From NCBI RefSeq assembly GCF_947494055.1, contig NZ_CANLTR010000029.1, positions 1-43,651 on the forward strand: a stretch of 43,651 bases of DNA, in the 5' to 3' direction. Positions within the stretch are counted from its first letter, which is position 1, and each line of letters opens with the position of its first letter. Positions 1-17,157 of this stretch are shown piece after piece. The position numbers were made by a program, and so were the translations under genes. The stretch comes from an uncultured Jannaschia sp. Lineage in GTDB: Bacteria; Pseudomonadota; Alphaproteobacteria; Rhodobacterales; Rhodobacteraceae. The notes below the pieces were generated by a model. It searched no databases and was not told where the DNA came from. It was given only the letters and a program-made list of their open reading frames with translations.

Positions 1-19
1 GGCCGGTGCCCTTCGTCGG

Positions 20-44
20 GCGATCCTTCCACTGGAAGGCTCGC
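20..44. repeat. Hairpin within an aberrant stretch of IS5 copy A, possible degenerate insert
   Basis: Where a relative reads CCGGACTTCTCGACG, copy A has about 48 extra bases (roughly 11-58). They contain 11-nt arms, GCGATCCTTCC and GGAAGGCTCGC, around the three-base loop ACT, with a single T/C mismatch. The three-base loop and location inside the transposase recall the inserts E1-E7, but the conserved flanks of that family are absent. It could be a diverged member or an unrelated insertion. Confidence 0.35.
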
Positions 45-140
45 TGATCCTCCTCAGTCTCGACGCTGTCTTGGCGGTAAAAGATGCTGGCCGTGCAACT
101 GCCCCACCGCGGCAGCGGCGGCCCGCTGCATCTGCTGATC

Positions 141-182
141 CCCCTCTCGGGACATTGCTTCGCAATGCCCTGCCGGGCAGTG
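141..182 (+). repeat. Hairpin insert E1 (42 bp) in transposase copy A
   Basis: The insert starts CCCCTCTCGGGA and ends TGCCGGGCAGTG. The core hairpin has arms CATTGC/GCAATG around loop TTC, extended by GGG/CCC with one bulged A on the 5' side. It lies between CTGATC and GACAGG. The relative copy B reads CTGATCGACAGC there, so 42 bases were added without target duplication. It adds 14 codons in frame (PLSGHCFAMPCRAV). It is open in all six frames. Confidence 0.9.
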
Positions 183-335
183 GACAGGACCGATATCAAG
201 GTGCGCGGTGAGGGCGAATGGCACGCTCGCAAACATGGTGGGGCGCGCAGGCGGGTTTGGCGCAAGGTCCACCTTGCCGTCGACGAGAGCACGCTCGAGG
301 TTCGTGCAGTCGAGATCACCGGCAGCGGCGCGGGC

Positions 336-377
336 CCCCTTTCAGCAGATTGCTTCGCAATCGCCTGTCGGGCAATG
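336..377 (+). repeat. Hairpin insert E2 (42 bp) in transposase copy A
   Basis: The insert begins CCCCTTTCAGCA and ends TGTCGGGCAATG. Its arms are GATTGC/GCAATC around loop TTC, with outer GC/GC pairs and the bulged A. Compared with E1, C-G is replaced by G-C at the stem base, a compensatory change. It sits between the GSGAG codons and GATGCTTCC, where the family normally continues with Asp-Ala, and adds 14 codons in frame. Confidence 0.88.
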
Positions 378-380
378 GAT

Positions 381-435
381 GCTTCCGTGCTTCCGTGCTT
401 CCGTGCTTCCGTGCTTCCGTGCTTCCGTGCTTCCG
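381..435 (+). repeat. Octanucleotide tandem repeat (GCTTCCGT, about 7 copies)
   Basis: Six perfect GCTTCCGT units and a seventh partial unit directly follow insert E2. The expected transposase sequence Asp-Ala-Ser-Val-Leu-Pro-Asp would need only two units (GCTTCCGTGCTTCCG). The five extra units add 40 bases and shift the frame by one. This looks like slipped-strand expansion of a naturally repeated codon pair. Confidence 0.85.
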
Positions 436-486
436 GACCTGCTTGGCCAAGTCCCTGAGAGCGAGCCGATCGCCTCGGTCACCGCC

Positions 487-526
487 CCTCTCGGGATCAT
501 GCGTCGCATGACCCTGCCGGGCAGTG
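487..526 (+). repeat. Hairpin insert E3 (40 bp) in transposase copy A
   Basis: The insert begins CCTCTCGGGA and ends TGCCGGGCAGTG. The arms are TCATGC/GCATGA around loop GTC, with GGG/CCC extension and the bulged A. The loop-proximal sequence differs from E1 but pairing is kept. It separates GTCACCGCC from GACGGCGCC, the Val-Thr-Ala/Asp-Gly-Ala of the family, and shifts the frame by one. Confidence 0.87.
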
Positions 527-738
527 GACGGCGCCTACGACACCCGCGCCTGCCGCGACGCCATCGCGAACCGCGGCGCGGACGCTGTCATCCCGCCCCG
601 GCGAAACGCCAAACCCTGGAAGAGGGACAGCCCTGGCGCAGGAGCGAGGAACGAGGCTCTGCGCACCATCAAGCGCCTCGGCCGCACCGACTGGCGACGA
701 TGGAGCGGCTATCACCGCCGCAGCCGCGCAGCGACGAA

Positions 739-779
739 GCCTCTCGGGACATTGCTTCGCAATGCCCTGCCGGCCAATG
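739..779 (+). repeat. Hairpin insert E4 (about 41 bp) in transposase copy A
   Basis: The insert contains CCTCTCGGGACATTGCTTCG and ends TGCCGGCCAATG. Hairpin arms are CATTGC/GCAATG with loop TTC, the same core as E1. It splits the Thr-Lys/Met-Asn-Cys junction of the transposase. The boundary can be drawn one base either way; with the boundary used here the following bases are GATG, as at the other sites. Confidence 0.85.
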
Positions 780-961
780 GATGAACTGCATGAAGCTGCT
801 CGGCCAGAAGCACATGGCCCGAGACTTCGACCGCCAGACAGCCGAACTCCAGATCCGCATCGCCATCCTGAACCGCTTCACTGCCCTCGGCACCCCCGCC
901 ACTCAACCCGTCGTCTGACCTCGGCCGGGAAAAGGGGGAGCTCGGCCTTCAGACGTCCCGT

Positions 962-1096
962 GCAACAGAGCCGGCCGAGACCTTACGGATGCTGGTCGAA
1001 AAGATCGTGCTCACTCCGGGGCAGGAACGCGGCGAAATCTGCGCGACACTGCATGGAGAATTGCGCACCATCCTTGAATGGACGGAACGGCAAAGA
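962..1096 (+). pseudogene. C-terminal remnant of a large serine recombinase
   Basis: The frame encodes ETLRMLVEKIVLTPG, then GEICATLHGELRTILEW. This matches the C-terminal end of resolvase/invertase-type recombinases, where a VxxIVLTP strand is followed by a hydrophilic turn and a LxGxLxxIL segment. No N-terminal catalytic domain precedes it; the IS5 copy A ends just upstream. It is probably a leftover of a mobile element cut by the IS or by deletion. The following H-NS-like frame runs through part of it in another frame. Confidence 0.6.
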
Positions 1097-1514
1097 TTGC
1101 CCAGTCCAGCCCCTCGGCGACGAGCGCCCGACCGACATCTATACAAATCACCCCGATGCAGACGGAGACCAACCGATCGTAGGCATCGACGGACTGGACC
1201 TCGACAAACTCAAAGCCCTGCAGAAGGACGTGAACAAGGCGGTCGAGGAGTACGACGAACGCCGCAAGAAGGAAGCCCGCGCCGAAGTCGAGGCCAAGGC
1301 CCGTGAACTAGGCTTCTCGTTGTCCGAACTCGCCGACGGGACCGGTAAGGCCGGGAAGAAGGCGCGGACGCCGCAGCCGGCCAATTACCGTCATCCCGAG
1401 AACGCGTCCCTGACCTGGAGCGGCCGCGGCCATCAGCCCGGGTGGATCAAGGAGGCGCTCGCGAACGGCACCTCGCTCGACGAGTTTCTGATCGAGCCGA
1501 AGAGCTCGTCCTGA
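1053..1514 (+). CDS. H-NS-family DNA-binding protein, start uncertain
   Basis: The C-terminal ~105 residues are typical of alphaproteobacterial H-NS-like proteins. There is a charged coiled-coil region (LDKLKALQKDVNKAVEEYDE, then ERRKKEARAEVEAKAREL) and the DNA-binding segment YRHPENASLTWSGRGHQPGW followed by IKEALANGTSLDEFLI. Members bind AT-rich or foreign DNA and silence transcription. The domain begins near 1188. No good ATG with a ribosome-binding site precedes it: the in-frame ATG at 1053 lies in the recombinase remnant, and a CTG at 1194 would match the usual family length. The native 5' end may have been lost in the rearrangement that placed it behind the IS and recombinase debris. 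Confidence 0.7.
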   Translation: MENCAPSLNGRNGKDCPVQPLGDERPTDIYTNHPDADGDQPIVGIDGLDLDKLKALQKDVNKAVEEYDERRKKEARAEVEAKARELGFSLSELADGTGKAGKKARTPQPANYRHPENASLTWSGRGHQPGWIKEALANGTSLDEFLIEPKSSS

Positions 1515-1557
1515 CGAAGCATCAGGCGACGAACCTCATGGAAGGGCAGGCCGACGG

Positions 1558-1824
1558 ATGCCGCCGACCGACGACCAGCAGGAGGTGTTTCCGACGCGGC
1601 TGAAGCTCCGGCGGATCGACCCGGCGCGCAACATGCGGCGCTTCTATCTCATGCAGGTTTAGCCAGACCTGTTCGGCGGCGTGAGCCTGATCCGGGAATG
1701 GGGCCGGATCGGCTCGGGCGGGCGGACCCTCGTCGAGCATCATGCCGACGAGGGAGCGGCGATCACCTCGCTGCTGAAGATGGCCAAGACGAAGGCGCGT
1801 TGCGGATACGACGACCACTGGTGA
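1558..1824 (+). pseudogene. WGR-domain protein with a premature stop
   Basis: The frame starting at ATG 1558 reads a short WGR domain: LKLRRIDPARNMRRFYLMQV, then PDLFGGVSLIREWGRIGSGG and a C-terminal block ending CGYDDHW, stop 1822-1824. A TAG at 1660-1662 falls where family members have Gln (QV-Q-PDLFG), so a single CAG to TAG change explains it. The WGR motif itself (EWGRIG) is intact downstream. WGR domains occur with DNA ligases, PARPs and as small stand-alone proteins, probably binding nucleic acid. Stop-codon readthrough cannot be excluded. Confidence 0.75.
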
Positions 1825-1904
1825 CCGTCGCAATCTGTGTCGGGATCGCCGTACAAGTTCCGGGCAGATCGTCAGACGTATGAGACGTATTGCAATCCAG
1901 AATG

Positions 1905-1925
1905 GAACGGGCCTTCGGCCCGTTC
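1905..1925. terminator. Rho-independent terminator-like hairpin
   Basis: A perfect 9-bp stem, GAACGGGCC/GGCCCGTTC, with loop TTC is followed by AAGATCGTTTT. It lies 80 bases after the WGR pseudogene and 150 bases after the end of the convergent HAD gene, so it could serve either side. The rest of 1825-2076 holds no gene that I can recognise. Confidence 0.6.
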
Positions 1926-2076
1926 AAGATCGTTTTAACACGAATTACGGATAATGTTCAAAAGTGGTAAAGGATTTCGAGGTAACCTTCATCGTGGGTG
2001 AAAGTTCGTTCCGTGACTGCGCTCCGCAGATCAAACCTCCTATAATTTTACGCGGTAGGCTGCGTGTCCGTTGTCA

Positions 2077-2727
2077 TCATAGGCGTCCGAGTTGCCATGG
2101 AAACGAAGCGAGTTCCGTCAGCGATGCGATCACCTGATCGGCGTCCACGAGATGACCCATATCAGGCGAACGTCGTAAGCCGATCGCCACGAATCCGCCT
2201 GCGCGGGCGGCGGCGAGACCGGACACGGAATCCTCGATCACGAGACAGGCTTCCGGGGGCAGCCCGAGATGCCGCGCTGCAAGCAGAAACGCGTCCGGCG
2301 CGGGTTTGCCGCACGCCACGTCGTTCCCGCCGACGATGACCACGAAGCGCGATTCGAGGCCCGCGAGACCGAGGATGTGCGACGCGAGAGAACTGCTCGA
2401 CGCGACGGCCATCGGCACGCCCTGCCGACCGAGACGCTCCACGACGTCGCGGGCATCGGGAAACACCTCGAACCGTCCGGCATCCACACAATCGCGGTAG
2501 AGCCGCTCCTTCATCTTCACCACGTCGTCGATGTCCTTGTCCGTCGCCGTCGGCATCACCGCGCGCGCGCCGTCCCGGGCAAGCCTGCCGTCGACGAGCT
2601 GCCGGTATGCGGCGGGATCGAAGCCGTACCCATGCGCCGCGAAGCTTTGCTGCCATGCCTCGTAATGAGCCGGAACGGTATCGAGCAGGACGCCGTCGAG
2701 ATCGAAGATGATGCCGGACGCACGCAT
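2077..2727 (-). CDS. HAD-superfamily phosphatase, beta-phosphoglucomutase-like
   Basis: A 216-residue HAD hydrolase of the beta-PGM/sugar-phosphatase type. Motif I is FDLDGVLLDT (residues about 8-17) with both aspartates. An alpha-helical cap follows, then motif II near VASSSS, the motif III lysine in CGKPAPDAFL, and motif IV VIEDSVSGLAAARAGG. Such enzymes dephosphorylate or isomerise small sugar phosphates in the cytosol. The ATG at 2727 was chosen because GAGG lies seven bases upstream and the family starts just before motif I. It is divergent from the SorC-type regulator and close to a PfkB kinase and a symporter, so a role in handling one imported sugar or polyol is likely. The substrate cannot be told from sequence. 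Confidence 0.9.
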   Translation of the reverse strand: MRASGIIFDLDGVLLDTVPAHYEAWQQSFAAHGYGFDPAAYRQLVDGRLARDGARAVMPTATDKDIDDVVKMKERLYRDCVDAGRFEVFPDARDVVERLGRQGVPMAVASSSSLASHILGLAGLESRFVVIVGGNDVACGKPAPDAFLLAARHLGLPPEACLVIEDSVSGLAAARAGGFVAIGLRRSPDMGHLVDADQVIASLTELASFPWQLGRL

Positions 2728-2838
2728 GGGACCTCGACGTCTGAATGGGCTGCCAGCGTTTGGTATCAATCTCTGGACAGAACCGCGGACTGGAATAATC
2801 ATGCAAGTTATGAATGTCGAACCCTGCTTGGTCGGTCC

Positions 2839-4014
2839 GTGACTGCAACGGCGTCGCTGCGTGATGCGTCCTACGAGCGAAGGGCGCGCTTTGCGGCCTA
2901 TCTGTGGTCGATGCACGACATGCCGCAAGCCGAGATCGGTGGCGTTCTCGGGGGGGTATCTCAATCCCACGTCTCCCGCCTGTTGTCGCACGCCGAACGT
3001 GCCGGCTATCTCGTGATCGAGCGCCGCTTCGTCGACAGTGCGCTCAGCGACGAGGACCGGCGCGACCTGCGGGATCTCCTTGCGCCCTCGGGCCTGGTGG
3101 AACGGCTGGAGGCGTTCTGCGCGCGCCATGACCTGCCGGTGCCGAGCCTCGACGTGCACCAGAGCGGCCCCGGCGCGACGGCGGGCGCGATGGCGCTGCG
3201 CCGTCGGCGGTTCGGCCGGGCAGCGGCGGGGGGCATCCTCGCGCGACTGCGCGATCAGGCGACCGTCGGGGTCGCGTGGGGGCGGACCATCGGCGCGGTG
3301 ATCGACGGCATGGCTCAGTCCAAGGCACCCCGGCCCCCGCAGGCCGAGGTGGAGGTCGTGCCGGTCTGCGCCGAACTGCTTCTGACCTCGCAGAGGGAGC
3401 TGTCCTCCAGCCGGATGGCCGAGCGGTTGAGCGAGGTACTCTGCGCTGCGCCGCATCAGACGCCGCAGCTGACCGGGTTCCCCGCCTACGTTCCCCGCCA
3501 CTACGATGGCGCCGGGCGGGACGCGATCTGGCACCTTATTCGGAATGCCCCGAATTATGCGCGCATCCTGCACGGCCCCGACGCGCTTGTCGGGCGCATG
3601 GACGCCCTGATCACGAGCGTCGGCCATGCCGCGCTTCCGGTCCTCGGCGGGTTCGACGACCTGCTTCGCGCGGGCGGGATTGACGCGGAGGACCTGAAAT
3701 CCCTCATCGTCGGAGATATCGGCGGCCTGTTGATCCCCCGGCCCGAGGCGAGCGACGCGGATTGTCGGCTCATCGAAGAGCTGAACGGCATGTGGACGGG
3801 AATTTCGCTCGCGCAGGTTTCGACGATCGCCGCACGGGCCCGGAAAACTCCGCTGCGGGCCGGGGTGATCGTGCTGGCGCTGCGTTCGGAGCGGGCGGCG
3901 ACGCTTCTCGAGACAGTCCGGCACGGACTGGCGTCACACCTGGTGATGGATCACGATGCGGCAGAAGGTTTGAAGGCGCAGCTCGACCGACAGTCGCCCA
4001 ATCACGTGGCGTAG
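2839..4014 (+). CDS. SorC/DeoR-type sugar-binding transcriptional regulator
   Basis: An N-terminal helix-turn-helix (QAEIGGVLGGVSQSHVSRLL, about residues 34-53) is followed by the C-terminal sugar-binding domain of the SorC family, with GRAAAGGILARLRD and VGVAWGRTIGAVIDGM. Members are tetrameric repressors or activators that release DNA on binding a sugar phosphate. A GTG at 2839 is the best start; the upstream frame stays open but is only the shadow of the opposite HAD gene. At about 391 residues it is longer than the usual 310-340, with a larger insert in the middle. The 111-bp divergent space to the HAD gene is the natural operator region. It converges with the PfkB kinase gene, overlapping it by 13 bases. 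Confidence 0.85.
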   Translation: MTATASLRDASYERRARFAAYLWSMHDMPQAEIGGVLGGVSQSHVSRLLSHAERAGYLVIERRFVDSALSDEDRRDLRDLLAPSGLVERLEAFCARHDLPVPSLDVHQSGPGATAGAMALRRRRFGRAAAGGILARLRDQATVGVAWGRTIGAVIDGMAQSKAPRPPQAEVEVVPVCAELLLTSQRELSSSRMAERLSEVLCAAPHQTPQLTGFPAYVPRHYDGAGRDAIWHLIRNAPNYARILHGPDALVGRMDALITSVGHAALPVLGGFDDLLRAGGIDAEDLKSLIVGDIGGLLIPRPEASDADCRLIEELNGMWTGISLAQVSTIAARARKTPLRAGVIVLALRSERAATLLETVRHGLASHLVMDHDAAEGLKAQLDRQSPNHVA

Positions 4015-4949
4015 GCGTCGGCGAGGCAGGCCTCCGCCTCCGCGAGCGTGCCGTAGGCATCGAGCGCCTGGCTAACGCAACGCCGGGCCCCGGCATAGTT
4101 CCCGAGCCGGGCCGCCATAAGGTGATCTCCGTGCAGCAGGTAGCCGAGCACCATGCCCGCTGCGAAGGAATCCCCGCATCCGGTCGTGTCCACGACGCGA
4201 TCGACCTGCACCCGCGGCACGACACGTTCGCGCAACCGCCCGCGCACGCGGTCGTAGACCACGCATCCATGTTGATCGAGCGTCACGTAGAGCGCGCGGA
4301 CCCCGCCCGAGAGGCAAATCTCCGCGAGGCGGGGCAGTTCGTCCATCGTCGGCTCGCCCTCGTCCGTCCGTTCGAACCAGACGTGACGCGCTTCCTCGAG
4401 GTTCATCTTTAGAAGGTCGATATGCGGCAGCCACACGTCGCGGTCGATCCAATCCTGCCGGAACCGCGTTCCGTCGGCGGCGCAGCCCATCGTCGGCCCG
4501 TGCGCATCGAAGGCGATCAGTCCGGTCGAGCGGGACCGAAGCGCACGCAGCGTCGCGAGGGGGACCTCGAAATCCGTGATCGGCACAACGATGAACGCGT
4601 CGTATCCTTCGAGACCGTCCAGATCGGTGCCCTGGATCGGCGTCATGCACCCGACCTGTGTTTCGTCGCGCCGGTTGTGGTCGCGATACTGCAAGCGGAT
4701 CGCGGTTCCCTGGTCCTGCCGGTCCGAGATGCGGGAGGGATCGACAGCGTCGAACCCGGCGAGCAGCGCGCGGATGTCGGCAAGGTTCGCGGCGGAGACG
4801 TGCGCGACGGGATGCACGCGCACACGGCCAGCCCCCAAGGATGCGAGCGCTGCGGTGGTGTAGAGCGCCCCGCCGTATCTCTCGTCGGTCTGCCCCTCGC
4901 AGGTCACGATGACGTCGCGAGGGATCGGACCCAGCACCGCCACGCGCAT
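4002..4949 (-). CDS. PfkB-family carbohydrate kinase
   Basis: A 315-residue ribokinase-superfamily protein. The N-terminal GPIPRDVIV strand and the YGGALYTTAALASLGA glycine motif fit the first PfkB signature. The second signature is VDTTGCGDSFAAGMVLGYLL near residues 255-275; the usual GAGD is GCGD here, but the catalytic aspartate is kept. These enzymes phosphorylate a sugar, nucleoside or related alcohol with ATP. It shares the locus with the HAD phosphatase, the SorC-type regulator and an SSS symporter and probably works on the same compound. The start at 4949 is preceded by a GGGAGG-like sequence. Confidence 0.88.
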   Translation of the reverse strand: MRVAVLGPIPRDVIVTCEGQTDERYGGALYTTAALASLGAGRVRVHPVAHVSAANLADIRALLAGFDAVDPSRISDRQDQGTAIRLQYRDHNRRDETQVGCMTPIQGTDLDGLEGYDAFIVVPITDFEVPLATLRALRSRSTGLIAFDAHGPTMGCAADGTRFRQDWIDRDVWLPHIDLLKMNLEEARHVWFERTDEGEPTMDELPRLAEICLSGGVRALYVTLDQHGCVVYDRVRGRLRERVVPRVQVDRVVDTTGCGDSFAAGMVLGYLLHGDHLMAARLGNYAGARRCVSQALDAYGTLAEAEACLADAYAT

Positions 4950-5125
4950 GCCCCCTCCCGGTCGCCGAACGGGGCGAGCCTAGGCGCCGCTGCACCGCCT
5001 GGCAATCGGCGTGAAGGCCTGCACTGCGCGCAAGGCGGGGCTGTCGATTTGTGCGTTCCGCCGAGCGTCAGGCACGCCTAGATCTGTTCCCGATACCGAA
5101 ACCGTATTCGATACCGGAGACTGAC

Positions 5126-5230
5126 ATGACCCGCCTGACCCGCCGCTTCGCCCGCGCCTTTGCCGCCCTGGTCCGCGAGGCCGCCCACGCCGCCCCGCGC
5201 ATCGACGCCAGCCTACGCGACGGACGGTGA
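5126..5230 (+). CDS. Small basic protein of 34 residues, unknown
   Basis: ATG at 5126 follows GGAGACTGAC, a plausible ribosome-binding site, and the frame ends with TGA at 5230. The product is short and arginine/alanine-rich (begins MTRLTRRFARAFAALV), amphipathic in its first half. A strong hairpin follows eight bases after the stop, as expected for a genuine short transcript. Upstream there is a direct repeat CGATACCG (around 5091 and 5114). I recognise no family. Confidence 0.45.
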   Translation: MTRLTRRFARAFAALVREAAHAAPRIDASLRDGR

Positions 5231-5238
5231 CTTCGAAC

Positions 5239-5270
5239 GGACACGGGCGGCCCGAAGGCCGCCCGTGTCC
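5239..5270. terminator. Perfect 14-bp hairpin between convergent genes
   Basis: The arms GGACACGGGCGGCC and GGCCGCCCGTGTCC pair perfectly around the loop CGAA. It lies between the small ORF (plus) and the end of the symporter gene (minus), so it can act as a bidirectional terminator. No clear T-run follows. Confidence 0.65.
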
Positions 5271-5286
5271 CGGCGTATTCTCCGCG

Positions 5287-6879
5287 TCAGGTAAAGATGA
5301 AGTAGGTTGAGACCACGATCGCCACGATCGCCGCACCCACGGGCTTGGCCAAGGCCCAGGGCGTCATGTCCACCGCGAGGCTGTCGCGCGGCACGAAGGC
5401 GCTCTCCCGCGGGCGGGCCCGTCCGATGGCCAGCATGATGCAGACGTTCAGGACGAACAGCAGCGCCATGACATGCAGGAAGTGCGGATAGTCGTCGGCT
5501 CCGACGACGAACTTCAGCCCGAACTGGCTCAGGATGTAGAGCCCGACGCCCGAGGCCAGCCCGACCTTCGCGGCCAGCGGCGGCACCCGGCGCGTGAAGA
5601 TGCCGACGAGGATGATCGTCAGGATCGGGATGGAGTAGCAACCGTTCACCTCCTGAAGGTACCCGAACAGGCCTTGCGGCGCGTTCGCGATGAACGGGGC
5701 GATGATCATTGATGCGATCGCCAGGACGATGCCGAACTTCTTGCCCGCCGACACGACCTGCCTGTCGCTGGCATCCGTCCGGACGTACTGGCGATAGATG
5801 TCGATGCCGAAGAGCGTCACCGAGCTGTTCAGCGCGGAGTTGAACGAGCTCAGGATGGCACCGAAGAGCACCGCCGCGAAGAACCCCCTGAGCGGGAACG
5901 GCAGGACTTCCGAGACGAGCCGCGGATAGGCCTGATCGGCGACTTCGAGCTCGCCGTTGAACAAGTGCCAGGCGATGATGCCCGGCAGCACGACGATGAT
6001 CGGCCCCAGTATCTTCAGGACGCCGGCGAAGAGCAGGCCCTTCTGTCCTTCCTTAAGGTCCCGGGCCGCGAGCGCCCGTTGGATGATGGCCTGGTTGGTG
6101 CCCCAGTAGAACAGCTGCACGAGCATCATGCCGGTGAAGATCGTGGCGAAAGGGACGCTCGCGTCGGGACCGCCGATCGCGTCGAACTTTTCGGGGTTGT
6201 CGGCGAACAGGGTGGAGAGTCCCACGAACGGATTGCCCCCGCCGATCGCCATGAGACCGAAGAGCGGAACCAGCAATCCCCCTGCGAAGAGGCCCACGGC
6301 GTTGATCGTATCGGACACGGCGACCGCCTTGAGGCCCCCGAAGATCGCATAGATCGAGCCGATGATGCCGATGGCCCAGACCGTGATCCAGAGCGCGGCC
6401 GTGTCGCTCACGCCGAGCAGTGCGGGCACGTCGAACATTGTGGAAAGGGCAAGCGCGCCCGAATAGAGGACGATGGGCAGCAGGACGATCACGTAGCCGG
6501 ACAGGAAGAGCAGCGATACCGCCGTCTTCGTCTGTGCGTCGTAACGTTCCTCGAGGAAGCCCGGGATCGTCGAGATACCCGATTTGAGATAACGGGGAAG
6601 AAGGACGAGCGCGGTCACCACCATCGCGATCGCGGCGAGCGTCTCCCAAGCCATGACGAGGATACCTTCGGAATAGGCCTGCCCCGTCAGGCCGACGATC
6701 TGTTCCGTCGACAGGTTCGTCAGGAGCAGCGAGCCGGCGATCACGGGCGCGGTCAGAGATCGACCGCCCAGGAAATACCCATCCGAATGCTCCTCGTCCG
6801 TCCCCCGCGTCCAGACATAGGACAGAACCGCGACGAGCGCGGTAAACCCAATGAATGCGAGCCAGTTGAAAACGCCCAT
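5287..6879 (-). CDS. Sodium/solute symporter (SSS/SLC5 family)
   Basis: A polytopic inner-membrane protein of 530 residues with about 13-14 predicted membrane segments, the size and topology of SGLT-like symporters. Family marks include YFLGGRSLTAPVIAGSLL near the N-terminus, the STEQIVGLTGQAYSEG loop, an IYAIFGGLKAVAVSDTIN segment and LFYWGTNQAIIQRALAARD. Members take up sugars, polyols, vitamins or sialic acids with sodium. The ATG at 6879 is preceded by GGAGGTGATC, a very strong Shine-Dalgarno sequence. The upstream ATG at 6897 is less likely. Proximity to the kinase, HAD phosphatase and SorC-type regulator suggests it brings in their substrate. Confidence 0.9.
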   Translation of the reverse strand: MGVFNWLAFIGFTALVAVLSYVWTRGTDEEHSDGYFLGGRSLTAPVIAGSLLLTNLSTEQIVGLTGQAYSEGILVMAWETLAAIAMVVTALVLLPRYLKSGISTIPGFLEERYDAQTKTAVSLLFLSGYVIVLLPIVLYSGALALSTMFDVPALLGVSDTAALWITVWAIGIIGSIYAIFGGLKAVAVSDTINAVGLFAGGLLVPLFGLMAIGGGNPFVGLSTLFADNPEKFDAIGGPDASVPFATIFTGMMLVQLFYWGTNQAIIQRALAARDLKEGQKGLLFAGVLKILGPIIVVLPGIIAWHLFNGELEVADQAYPRLVSEVLPFPLRGFFAAVLFGAILSSFNSALNSSVTLFGIDIYRQYVRTDASDRQVVSAGKKFGIVLAIASMIIAPFIANAPQGLFGYLQEVNGCYSIPILTIILVGIFTRRVPPLAAKVGLASGVGLYILSQFGLKFVVGADDYPHFLHVMALLFVLNVCIMLAIGRARPRESAFVPRDSLAVDMTPWALAKPVGAAIVAIVVSTYFIFT

Positions 6880-7261
6880 GATCACCTCCCTGATCACTTA
6901 CTGATGGAGTAAGGATTGGCGAAAAGCGTTTATGATGGGTATGAAAATTGATAGCGGGCATACCTATGTCGCAGCTCAAGCTTCCGCTTAAAAGGCTCTC
7001 GGTCTCCCAATGTTGCTTGGCCTGCCCCTATCGGGTGGTCCGGTTTCAGTCTTAGTGCATGACGGGCCTTGGTGCCATCGTCGTTGCCTGAGGCGGAGAC
7101 GAACCACCGCCGCGTGAAGGCAAGTGGACGGCTTCCGGCGCGGGCGGCCGATATCCCAGCGACGAGTGTGGCCGCGCGGTATTGTAATGGACGCGCCACG
7201 CCTCGATCACCACGCGGGCTTCGGCGAGGGAGTAAAATATCTCCCCGTTTAACAGCTCGTC

Positions 7262-7302
7262 CGTTGCCCGGCAGGCGATTGCAGAGCAATCTGCCGAGAG
7301 GG
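7262..7302 (-). repeat. Hairpin insert E6 (41 bp) in IS3 OrfB
   Basis: Read on the minus strand it begins CCCTCTCGGCA and ends TGCCGGGCAACG. The arms are GATTGC/GCAATC around loop TCT, with GGC/GCC extension and bulged A. It splits the Lys-Leu-Arg/Asp-Glu-Leu-Leu-Asn block between CTCCGC and GACGAG. Confidence 0.87.
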
Positions 7303-7346
7303 GCGGAGCTTCGAGTTGAAGCTTTCGCAGTAGCCGTTCTCCCATG

Positions 7347-7387
7347 CACTGCCCGGCAGGGCATCGCATGGCGATGTCCCGAGAGGG
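7347..7387 (-). repeat. Hairpin insert E5 (41 bp) in IS3 OrfB
   Basis: Read on the minus strand it begins CCCTCTCGGGA and ends TGCCGGGCAGTG. The arms are CATCGC/GCGATG around loop CAT, with GGG/CCC extension and bulged A. It splits the Gly-Ser-Pro/Trp-Glu-Asn-Gly block of the transposase, only about 45 bases from E6. It is the one member followed by CATG rather than GA. Confidence 0.86.
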
Positions 7388-7782
7388 GGCTGCCGGGCTC
7401 GATGAACACCCTCTTAGCCCCCACCGCGTCGATCCAGCCCCGTACCGCCTTGGCGATGAACTCCGGCCCATTGTCCGATCGGACGTGACCGGGCACGCCT
7501 CGAAGGATGAACAGATCGGTCAGGACATCGATTACGGCGGTCGAGTTCAGCTTCCGGTCGATCCTGATCGCCAGGCATTCCCTGGTGAACTCGTCGATGA
7601 CGTTCAGCATACGGAACTTCCTCCCGTCATGCGTCCGGCCCTCGACGAAGTCGTAGGACCAGACGTGGTTCGGGCGCTCGGGGCGCAGACGGATGCACGA
7701 TCCGTCACCCAACCAGAGCCGGCCCTTCTTCGGTTGCCTCGGACGGCACTTTCAGCCCCTCCCGTCGCCAGATCCGCTCGTC

Positions 7783-7825
7783 CGTTGCCCGGAAGGCGAT
7801 TTGCAACGCAAATCTGCCGGAAGGG
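7783..7825 (-). repeat. Hairpin insert E7 (43 bp) in IS3 OrfB
   Basis: Read on the minus strand it begins CCCTTCCGGCA and ends TTCCGGGCAACG. The arms are one base pair longer, GATTTGC/GCAAATC, around loop GTT, with GGC/GCC extension and bulged A. It lies after the NVKR codons and before GAGCGGATCTGG (Glu-Arg-Ile-Trp), in the helix before the integrase core. Confidence 0.85.
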
Positions 7826-8068
7826 GCGTTTCACGTTCACGGCCCAGCCGGCATCATGCAGCATGGCCGCGACCCGGCGGTAGCCGTAGCGTCCGTATTG
7901 ACTGGCGAGCGCGACGATGTCCGCGGTCAGCGCGTCTTCGTCGGGGGCGGCCCCGCGGCATCTTCCGCTGTGTCGAACGATGCTGCCCAAGAACGCGGCA
8001 AGCGAAGCGCTCCGAGACGGAGAACGTTTGACGGACGTGATCGATGCAGGCACGGCGGCGGGCGGGGC

Positions 8069-8368
8069 TCAGAAGTTTTGCTGACGCAGACCTTCGGTTC
8101 CCGAGGCAGCCTCCTTCAAGATCAGCTTCTCGAGCGTGAGATCGGACACGGCCTTCCGCAGCCGTTCGTTTTCCTTCTCGAGTTCCTTGAGGCGCTTCAC
8201 CTGGTCGGTCTTCAGGCCCCCGAACTCCTTGCGCCATCGGTAATAGGTGAACTGCGTCACGCCGATCGAGCGCACCGACTCGGCCACCGATCGGCCTTGC
8301 GATACCAGCACGTCGACCTGCCGGAGCTTCGCGACGATTTCCTCCGGCTTATGCCTCTTCTGTCCCAT
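8069..8368 (-). CDS. IS3-family OrfA (helix-turn-helix protein)
   Basis: A 99-residue OrfA of the IS407-like type. It carries KRHKPEEIVAKLRQVDVLVS at the N-terminus, a helix-turn-helix in SVAESVRSIGVTQFTYYRWR, and a C-terminal leucine-zipper-like stretch (VKRLKELEKENERLRKAV) that pairs OrfA with OrfB. The start at 8368 (MGQKRHKPEE) matches relatives; GGAGGA lies upstream. Normally OrfAB is made by a -1 frameshift near the end of orfA. Here orfB is broken, so OrfA alone could at most bind the ends. Confidence 0.85.
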   Translation of the reverse strand: MGQKRHKPEEIVAKLRQVDVLVSQGRSVAESVRSIGVTQFTYYRWRKEFGGLKTDQVKRLKELEKENERLRKAVSDLTLEKLILKEAASGTEGLRQQNF

Positions 8369-8428
8369 TCCTTCGTCCTCCATCTGGCTCGAAAGCCTAC
8401 TTCAGGGAGGACCACTTTTCAGGGGGCA

Positions 8429-8751
8429 GACCAGCCGTATCTCGGGCCGATGCGGTGAGCGGGAAGCAATGCCGGATAATCGTCGGACTTCGTCGAATTG
8501 ACGGCGATTGCCACGGTGACGATCTCGGGGTGCCGCGGTTTGGCCATTCGGTCTCGTCAGTTCGCCGCGTATGCTTCTCGACCTGCTCCGATACCACCGA
8601 TATCGGTGAAAAAGGCCGGGCACGAGATGTGGCTTTGTTGCGTTCGCAATCGTCGTGACGACGGTTTCAACAGCCTGCCATCCAGCGATCCGCTTCATCA
8701 AGTCTTCCGACCGGGCACGGAAGCCGGGAAGGGACGTATCATGCGGGAGTG
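8429..8751. other. Intergenic stretch without a recognisable gene
   Basis: About 320 bases between the IS3-family element and the small secreted protein. A short string TGGCTTTGTTGCG near 8630 resembles the end of some IS elements, but no partner end is visible. Frames open on both strands show no family resemblance. Confidence 0.4.
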
Positions 8752-16641: not shown

Positions 16642-17157
16642 CCGCCCTACGCCGCTGTCGGTGAACTCGACAGCGCGAACCTCGAGCGTCGCCTCGTCGA
16701 TGGCGAGATGGACCTTGCGCCAGACGCGCCGCCGAGCCCCGCCGTGCTTGCGCGCGTGCCATTCGCCCTCGCCCCGGACCTTGATGCCGGTGCTGTCGAT
16801 CAGCAGATGGAGCAATCCGCCCGAGCCCCGATAGGGCAGCTGCACGGCGAGCGTCTTCTGACGGCGGCACAGCGTCGAGAAGTCCGGCACTGGCCAGTCC
16901 AGGCCCGCCAGCTTCAGCAGGCTCGCCACGAAGCCGATCGTCTGCCGGAGCGGTAGGCCGAACAGCACCTTGATCGTGAGGCAGGTCTGGATCGCGGCGT
17001 CCGAGAAGGTCTGCTGACGGCCGCGCTTGCCCGACGGCGCCGCGTGCCAAGTCATGCCAGGATCGAACCAGATCGTCAGCGAACCGCGCTCACGCAGCGA
17101 CGCGTTGTAGGACGACCTGTTCAGGGTGCGGTAGCGTGTGGGTGCAGGCTTGGACAT
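16627..17157 (-). pseudogene. IS5-family transposase, copy B, C-terminally truncated
   Basis: The first ~170 residues are an intact IS5/IS427-type transposase: an N-terminal domain SYNASLRERGSLTIWFDPGM, LPLRQTIGFVASLLKLAGLD, the DDE-start STGIKVRGEGEWHARK and LEVRAVEF. It ends at DSGVG and runs into unrelated codons (RTANR) and a stop, losing two thirds of the catalytic domain. The last matching residue is exactly where insert E2 sits in copy A. It carries none of the hairpin inserts and thus shows the empty site of E1. It lies next to the metK end; the IS end is probably within 17190-17230. Confidence 0.85.

Follow-up and report, generated by a model that had tools for sequence, protein, structure and literature searches.

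The window analysed here is a stretch of 43,651 nucleotides (nt) from an uncultured Jannaschia sp. of the Rhodobacteraceae (contig NZ_CANLTR010000029.1, forward strand), and it holds seven short hairpin inserts, E1 to E7, in two insertion sequence (IS) copies. An earlier note, made from the sequence alone, had described these inserts as a family of 40-43 bp with shared flanks, confined to transposase genes. A direct check of the sequence bore out all seven inserts and their flanks at the coordinates first reported; the length range also stood, with the correction that 41 nt is the usual length; E1 and E2 carry an extra C, and E7 measures 43 nt. Four inserts lie on the forward strand in an IS5-family copy (1..972, +) that is cut by the contig start, has its stop codon at 916-918 and a terminal repeat, recognised by eye, near 972, and shows DDE_Tnp_1 homology via its family reference. 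E1 (141..182, +; 42 nt; 74.1 bits with the covariance model described below) is inserted immediately 5' of the first catalytic Asp codon of the transposase (LLI^DRTDIK; the caret marks the insertion point throughout). The remaining inserts were placed by the covariance model and by codon context. E2 (336..377, +; 42 nt) stands 5' of a GAT codon (G^DASVLP), E3 (486..526, +; 40-41 nt, since a shared C leaves its start at 486 or 487 and its end at 526) 5' of the second catalytic Asp codon (VTA^DGAYDTR), and E4 (739..779, +; 41 nt) at ATK^MNCMKLLG, beside the catalytic Glu position. The other three lie in an IS3-family copy on the reverse strand (7018..8432, -; ends by eye from the terminal repeats) with OrfA at about 8069-8383, OrfB below it, and rve/rve_3 homology via its family reference. 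All three interrupt OrfB: E5 (7347..7387, -; 41 nt) at the catalytic Glu motif (IEPGS^PWENGY), E6 (7262..7302, -; 41 nt) at KLR^DELLNGE, and E7 (7783..7825, -), with a stem one pair longer, at VKR^DERIWRREG. The residues called catalytic are those known as such in these transposase families.

All seven inserts touch transposase homology, which makes up 6.5% of the window. Outside its elements the IS5 copy has no in-frame stop over amino acids 121-309, yet it aligns in two segments; in the IS3 copy 255 codons align in three segments with one stop. Directly after E2, within the IS5 gene, the tandem 8-nt repeat TGCTTCCG occupies positions 372-443, with fewer units in the G000:C6 copy, and is a second frame-breaking change of this IS5 copy. 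A second, truncated IS5 copy at about 16642-17157 (-), placed at 16642-16995 in one comparison, carries no element.

Covariance model R1 was built from 15 copies including E1-E7, and its seven matches in the window are thus there by construction; it gives exactly these seven at E<=0.01 (the weakest at 1.8e-8), in agreement with the earlier statement that the rest of the window holds no further copy. A plain pattern scan of the source genome found 17 exact copies, against none for a reversed-pattern control. In the alignment 98.5% of stem cells were paired, against 77.4% after shuffling, and six of nine stem pairs changed on both sides, against 3.6 in shuffles (3 of 500 shuffles reached six). 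One of the five measures used, further pair types, showed no excess over shuffles; the others exceeded them. No Rfam covariance model matched window positions 1-8500 at E<=1.

The usual span is 41 nt (285 of 364 model spans, among which overlapping loci cause some copies to be counted twice). Written on the strand with the target at the right, the element reads CCC-TCTC-GGS-A-stem6-NNN-stem6-SCC-TGCC-GGG-CARTG, followed by host GAYRR; the hairpin is conserved and has one bulged base. Insertion occurs immediately 5' of GAYRR, usually after C, and without target duplication. At 237 distinct junctions the host base before the insertion point was C in 73%, and the bases after it were G in 81%, A in 78%, Y in 89%, R in 82%, and R in 80%. 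Among the loci examined, 103 of 268 junctions had an element-free homologue whose alignment stayed ungapped for 15 nt around the junction, 19 of them at 85% identity or more. An IS of plasmid pDSHI04 with two elements illustrates the precision of insertion: its 921 nt align to 839 nt in several copies from Paracoccus, of which two bear the annotation IS1248A, and the lengths differ by 2 x 41.

The source genome gave 68 matches at E<=1, one of which (C6:66705, 23.5 bits) was judged false. When 147 genomes were searched with stricter filters (no more than 43 matches being counted in any one genome), 44 including the source genome had matches at E<=0.01. These were 44 of the 90 genomes of the same family, and none of the 57 others was positive. 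In a class-level sample 9 of 385 genomes matched at E<=1e-4, source included, and four of the nine belonged to other families. A pattern scan of named genomes found at least 116 stretches, nearly all from Rhodobacterales by title, and 105 plasmid records matched a 68-nt sequence that joins the hairpin to IS5 flank. Two loci titled Enemella evansiae TN21-6, an actinobacterium, also carry the family (L189 and L193); that assembly is probably mislabelled.

Hosts were classified for a set of 268 copies, from which one incomplete match (L151 1-27) had been excluded beforehand. Transposase homology was assessed with 26 reference proteins, eight of them without a Pfam scan of their own. The references were drawn partly from the flanks of hits, so that the count tells what the hosts are; the copy sample itself was drawn by hairpin sequence alone. 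Of the 268 copies, 206 lay inside transposase homology or at most 15 nt away from it, a further 17 were within 300 nt, and 45 were unmatched. For the 68 matches of the source genome the corresponding numbers were 62, 1, and 5; by eye, four of these five lie inside other transposase genes or at their start, and the fifth is false. Of 20 host pieces scanned against Pfam, 17 belonged to transposase or IS helper families, one had a helix-turn-helix (HTH) domain only, one was RelE, and a 41-amino-acid piece gave nothing. The groups were rve, DDE_Tnp_1, IS66 TnpC and TnpB, IstB, a Mu-type C-terminal domain, Mutator, IS240, DUF772, DDE_3, and HTH_Tnp_1. In terms of IS families, rve corresponds to IS3/IS30/IS481 types, DDE_Tnp_1 to IS5/IS1380/ISAs1 types, IstB and the Mu-type domain to IS21, Mutator to IS256, IS240 to IS6, DUF772 to IS1182, and DDE_3 to IS630. 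The hosts span roughly a dozen IS families. By eye, most of the 45 copies without a match look like IS types outside the reference set, presumably including Tn3 and IS91-associated genes to judge by their motifs; a few matched no recognised type (e.g. L116 and L121 2284).

Target availability does not explain this bias. In control loci L112-L231 (823,852 bases) 10.4% of bases fell within transposase homology extended by 15-nt margins, and C^GAYRR occurred at 6.4 per kb inside it and 6.5 outside; 134 of 200 elements touched it (nominal p about 1e-81, the copies being non-independent). A covariance-model search of the source genome and its relatives with a count of hosts, the check proposed in the earlier note, thus strongly supports specificity, and confinement to transposase genes holds as a strong bias that is not exclusive. 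Two copies interrupt a RelE-type toxin gene (L119 1345-1388 and L228 1471-1514), assigned by PF06296 for L228 and by sequence similarity for L119. Seven others, at four loci in three Sulfitobacter strains (L184, L125, L224, and L139), have the context of a miniature inverted-repeat transposable element (MITE). At L184 a MITE at about 5990-6385 with inverted ends AGGCTCTGGACCCATTAAT (by eye) carries two hairpins; the other three loci share its flanks, and the MITE ends were seen only in L184. The elements are thus restricted to the DNA of transposons, in either orientation, and not to transposase genes in the strict sense. As a side observation, each interrupted RelE-family gene adjoins a probable antitoxin gene; one is in a metagenome-assembled genome and one in a viral contig.

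Recurrent sites were compared for the 148 of 268 copies that could be assigned, a few of which are recombinants. In IS5 the first catalytic Asp codon was hit 16 times (15 further copies besides E1, a few of them recombinants) and the second 11 times (10 besides E3, two of them recombinants); GDAPV was hit 6 times, two sites near the Glu 8 and 3 times, and the antisense site ACLT^MKV 7 times. IS3 sites were PWENG (5) and DELLN (5), where an element identical to E6 occupies the homologous site in L173, IS66 sites ^DDTPV (4) and ^DGYAGF (3), and IstB sites Walker B (3) and antisense Walker A (3). Two intact IS5 genes contain 13 and 9 sense GAYRR sites, and both catalytic Asp codons are used. A preference for catalytic codons is suggestive; it is no rule, because the conserved GAYRR site IGI^DEET had no sense copy among the assigned copies. 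Where hosts were more than 20% apart, elements at the same site differed at 7.3-8.7 of 41 positions (bin means), against 8.56 for random elements. Same-site elements are thus on average as different as random ones, and mostly stem from independent insertions at sites hit repeatedly; in closely related hosts the insert is common by descent. Compensatory evolution in situ at shared sites had been considered and was rejected on the comparison of element difference with host divergence, by which most insertions are independent above 20%. Many independent insertions, precise and in both orientations, are shown. At G000:C18:8694, L203:1952, and L225:2901 a single hairpin links flanks that belong to two separate insertion sites, the outcome expected if two hairpins in one gene recombine and the stretch between them is deleted.

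Strand, pair, and loop counts were made on 44-nt model spans only (252 of 326 distinct copies, 249 for pair 2-37). Among 187 unique elements, non-Watson-Crick stem pairs were A.C in 47 cases and G.T in 19 (p = 7.6e-4); A.C on the given strand is G.T on the complementary strand. Mutation bias is unlikely to explain this excess, since the background runs the opposite way: a count over eight columns that lie outside the main stem, half of them C and half G, gave 42 changes of C to T and 14 of G to A (7 without G columns 35 and 36, which lie within the proposed outer helix). A GNA loop was present in 119 of 187 elements on the complementary strand and in 3 on the given strand; d(GCGNAGC) mini-hairpins are unusually stable as single-stranded DNA. 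RNA energies favoured the complementary strand in 140 of 187 elements, and DNA parameters gave the consensus -9.5 kcal/mol on that strand against -8.1 on the given one. This suggests that the folded strand is the complement of CCCTCTCGG...CARTG, proposed as 5'-YYRTC^CAYTG-CCC-GGCA-GGS-stem-GNA-stem-T-SCC-GAGA-GGG^G-3'. In sense copies the complementary strand serves as template, an argument against a function in host mRNA. An outer helix of 3 bp, in which pair 2-37 covaries, is supported by the alignment (n = 249: C-G 211, A-T 11, G-C 8, T-G 9, other 10; E4 carries the G-C variant). The same comparison supports an apparent association of element base 37 with the host base at -1: the host base was A in 11 of 14 copies with T at position 37 and in 11 of 224 with G (odds ratio 71, p = 8e-11), and with distinct flanks only in 9 of 12 and 11 of 171 (p = 6e-8).

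The interrupted hosts are more broken than their element-free relatives. Among IS5 rows (a few copies occur in two rows, and segments arise from frame changes or inexact excision of the element), 23 of 44 with elements and 24 of 33 without had no in-frame stop outside the elements, and 28 of 44 against 9 of 33 fell into two or more segments. IS3 hosts with the PWENG site gave omega values of 0.07-0.20 (7 of 10 pairs with synonymous divergence, dS, defined), against 0.02-0.03 for three intact copies. By these sequence comparisons recent death probably fits better than function. Element-bearing broken copies have still multiplied. Plasmid pDSHI04 carries three identical IS copies (919-923 bp), each with two antisense elements and an in-frame stop; genome G004 has two identical 1,092-bp IS5 copies with a frame-breaking element; and in G419 (L329-L332) four IS3-type copies, whose aligned pieces are 97.8-99.6% alike, each hold three to five elements in mixed orientation. 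Relative to the host, 134 of 206 elements are sense and 72 antisense. Intact element-free IS5 copies coexist in the source genome and could supply transposase to the broken ones.

The interpretation that we favour, at a probability of about 60%, is that E1-E7 belong to a group of non-autonomous 41-nt insertion elements of Rhodobacteraceae that fold as single strands and are nested in transposons. By analogy with single-strand transposition, such an element would move as single-stranded DNA (or as an RNA copy). An enzyme supplied in trans would recognise the hairpin and join it at a short target, perhaps chosen partly by matching the element, and insertion would break the host frame. From then on the element would travel with the disabled transposon as that is mobilised in trans and transferred among species. 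Copies elsewhere would be purged or never amplified, which would leave nearly all visible ones in transposons. The confinement could be due to targeting, to selection for knock-out, or to retention with hitchhiking, and we hold the last to be the most likely.

Several observations weigh against this interpretation. Tolerance alone does not readily explain the scarcity of copies outside transposons, which is the main point favouring targeting. No mobiliser was found: Y1, Y2, and reverse transcriptase genes all rise with element number (the source genome was entered as 68, relatives with 43 at most), as general mobile-gene load would, so that co-occurrence is uninformative. Of the 44 element-bearing genomes of the same family 35 gave no Y1 match, and nine had a Y1_Tnp match at E<=0.001; the single Y1 match of the source genome covers profile positions 77-121 only. 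No longer autonomous version came to light either, all 16 exact 3' halves in the source genome belonging to full elements. The closest ungapped element-free homologue among the loci examined is 91.4% identical, and thus no very young insertion was observed. The strand test becomes weak when each of the 75 distinct stems is counted once (A.C 33 against G.T 18, p = 0.049), and DNA parameters fold the complementary strand as three small hairpins, not as a two-tier stem. The copies with T at position 37 come mostly from three or four IS sites and are not independent, and ten copies with C there break the pattern (host A 5, C 3, G 2). Finally, among same-site pairs in hosts more than 20% apart, 6-14% differ at one position at most, against 2.5% of random pairs, and four of these pairs have identical elements although their hosts are 26-47% apart (IS5 TKM, IS3 PWENG, IS5 D2, and IS66 DDT); this excess may reflect old shared inserts or transfer between homologous sites.

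Two other candidates were set aside. A 5' extension shared by several hairpins was considered as a longer parent element and rejected, as it is an IS110-like element inserted into the hairpin. This element (with a 329-amino-acid transposase, named by eye) lies inside a hairpin between CCCTCT and CTCGGG in G000:C56 (L085 about 855-1962), and its right end adjoins hairpins in IS5 and IS3 hosts of G017 (C6: L052 and L307; C34: L306, identical in record to L173). The hairpin is a target of the IS110-like element, which is a parasite of the hairpin and not the hairpin itself; some elements of the IS110 family target palindromic repeats. The ends of IS91 showed no visible relation to the hairpin.

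Alternative explanations differ in what they make of the bias and of the broken frames. A nucleic-acid-guided element that hunts transposons is possible but doubtful. It would be a 41-nt single-stranded hairpin that chooses its site partly by matching its base 37 to host base -1 and enters transposons by preference, often at active-site codons, as a hyperparasite of mobile DNA or as an immune writer against it. Guide pairing between element base 40 and target position +3 showed no association (p = 0.78). A literature search of titles and the starts of abstracts yielded no description of a bacterial guided transposon-hunting system. Active silencing, in which a host system writes the hairpin into transposons and some toxin genes to the host's benefit, would account for a bias that target density does not produce, for up to four or five elements within one IS copy, for catalytic Asp codons among the frequent sites, and for a toxin gene as the sole clear non-transposon gene host. 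We nevertheless consider it unlikely: no candidate system was found, intact element-free IS5 copies persist in the source genome, interrupted copies still multiply, elements also occur in a MITE context that has no recognised transposase coding, and IGI^DEET lacks a sense copy among those assigned.

The remaining alternatives give the insert a role in the expression or the product of its host gene. As a terminator, antisense promoter, or protein site selected for tempering transposase expression, the hairpin would fit the structure kept by covariation and the asymmetry of stem wobbles between strands, but insertion breaks the very gene to be regulated, and positions are found throughout coding sequences and at start codons in both orientations; such a role seems improbable. 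Programmed translational bypass or removal from the mRNA, with functional hosts in which the insert is skipped, was once our favoured reading on account of the open frames and low omega. The insert does break the frame, as in T4 gene 60 and the yeast mitochondrial cases, and 23 of 44 element-bearing IS5 rows lack stops outside the elements; PWENG-site host codons have omega of 0.07-0.20. We dropped it on the antisense copies (72 of 206), the copies in the MITE, the strand asymmetry, and the dead copies that have multiplied while carrying antisense elements and an in-frame stop. Antisense copies and complementary-strand folding, which puts the apparent folded strand on the template strand of sense copies, speak against both bypass and splicing; element-bearing IS5 rows are also more broken than element-free ones, and PWENG-site omega exceeds that of the three intact IS3 copies. 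We now consider this reading very improbable. A peptide insert read in frame, in the manner of Rickettsia palindromic elements, would share the palindromic, intragenic nature of the family, and E1 and E2 happen to measure 42 nt. We give it almost no credence, given that 285 of 364 spans are 41 nt, no multiple of three, a length that already largely excludes it, and that copies occur in both orientations in transposases.

The non-autonomous single-strand element that we favour has partial counterparts among known systems. Repetitive extragenic palindromic (REP) sequences, tagged GTAG or CGTC and associated with REP-associated tyrosine transposases (RAYTs), likewise occur as numerous small, imperfect palindromes that bear a short tag at their foot, and the CGTC group is mainly alphaproteobacterial (PMC3733652). 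The hairpin family differs in having no fixed tag: its folded-strand target is YYRTC, and GACG, the equivalent of CGTC, is found at only 34 of 237 junctions. REPs are mainly extragenic, whereas for 206 of our 268 copies transposase homology surrounds the element or begins no more than 15 nt from it; the family also has a bulged stem, a probable outer helix, and no consistent Y1 gene. Elements of the IS200/IS605 group transpose as single strands, with a bulged hairpin and a fixed orientation to a short target, and have MITE derivatives. Here too there is no target duplication, the orientation to a short target is fixed, the hairpin has a bulge, and element bases appear to track the target; by contrast, there is one hairpin unit instead of two ends, hosts are restricted to transposons, and the hairpin ends are not common to any Y1-encoding element found in the source genome. 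A MITE of a DDE transposon is a poorer match, with no duplication at 103 element-free homologues and no parent indicated by the pattern of 3' halves.

Comparison with known intragenic inserts gives a similar picture. Rickettsia palindromic elements are longer and not specific to transposases, as the earlier note had stated; they are about 150 bp, in frame and in ordinary genes (PMC10969869). They resemble the hairpins as palindromic intragenic inserts; the hairpins are 41 nt long, break the frame, lie in transposases, and are antisense in 72 of 206 cases. The bypassed inserts of Magnusiomyces mitochondria are short and frame-breaking and occur at many coding positions (PMC5009743). The hairpins are like these inserts and T4 gene 60 in being short, frame-breaking, and spread over many coding positions, and unlike them in that about one third are antisense, the opposite strand is apparently the folded one, and several hosts are dead. 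In make-up the hairpins thus resemble REPs and IS200-type MITEs; they fail the tags and linkage of those groups, their host range is unusual, and the family could prove new.

A literature search across titles and the starts of abstracts, with few subscription papers and no preprints among them, gave no described repeat with this distribution, as the earlier note had supposed, and no described family of short hairpins confined to transposons of different types, although such repeats are common in bacteria. Its insertion reaction, which has a short and defined target and one element base that apparently tracks this target, could be put to the test. If the bias is insertional, there would be a mechanism that distinguishes transposon DNA from the remaining genome. 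If it is due to retention, the elements would document, in nature, how selection has acted and how transposons have moved from species to species. On both readings they account for many broken transposases of the Rhodobacteraceae.

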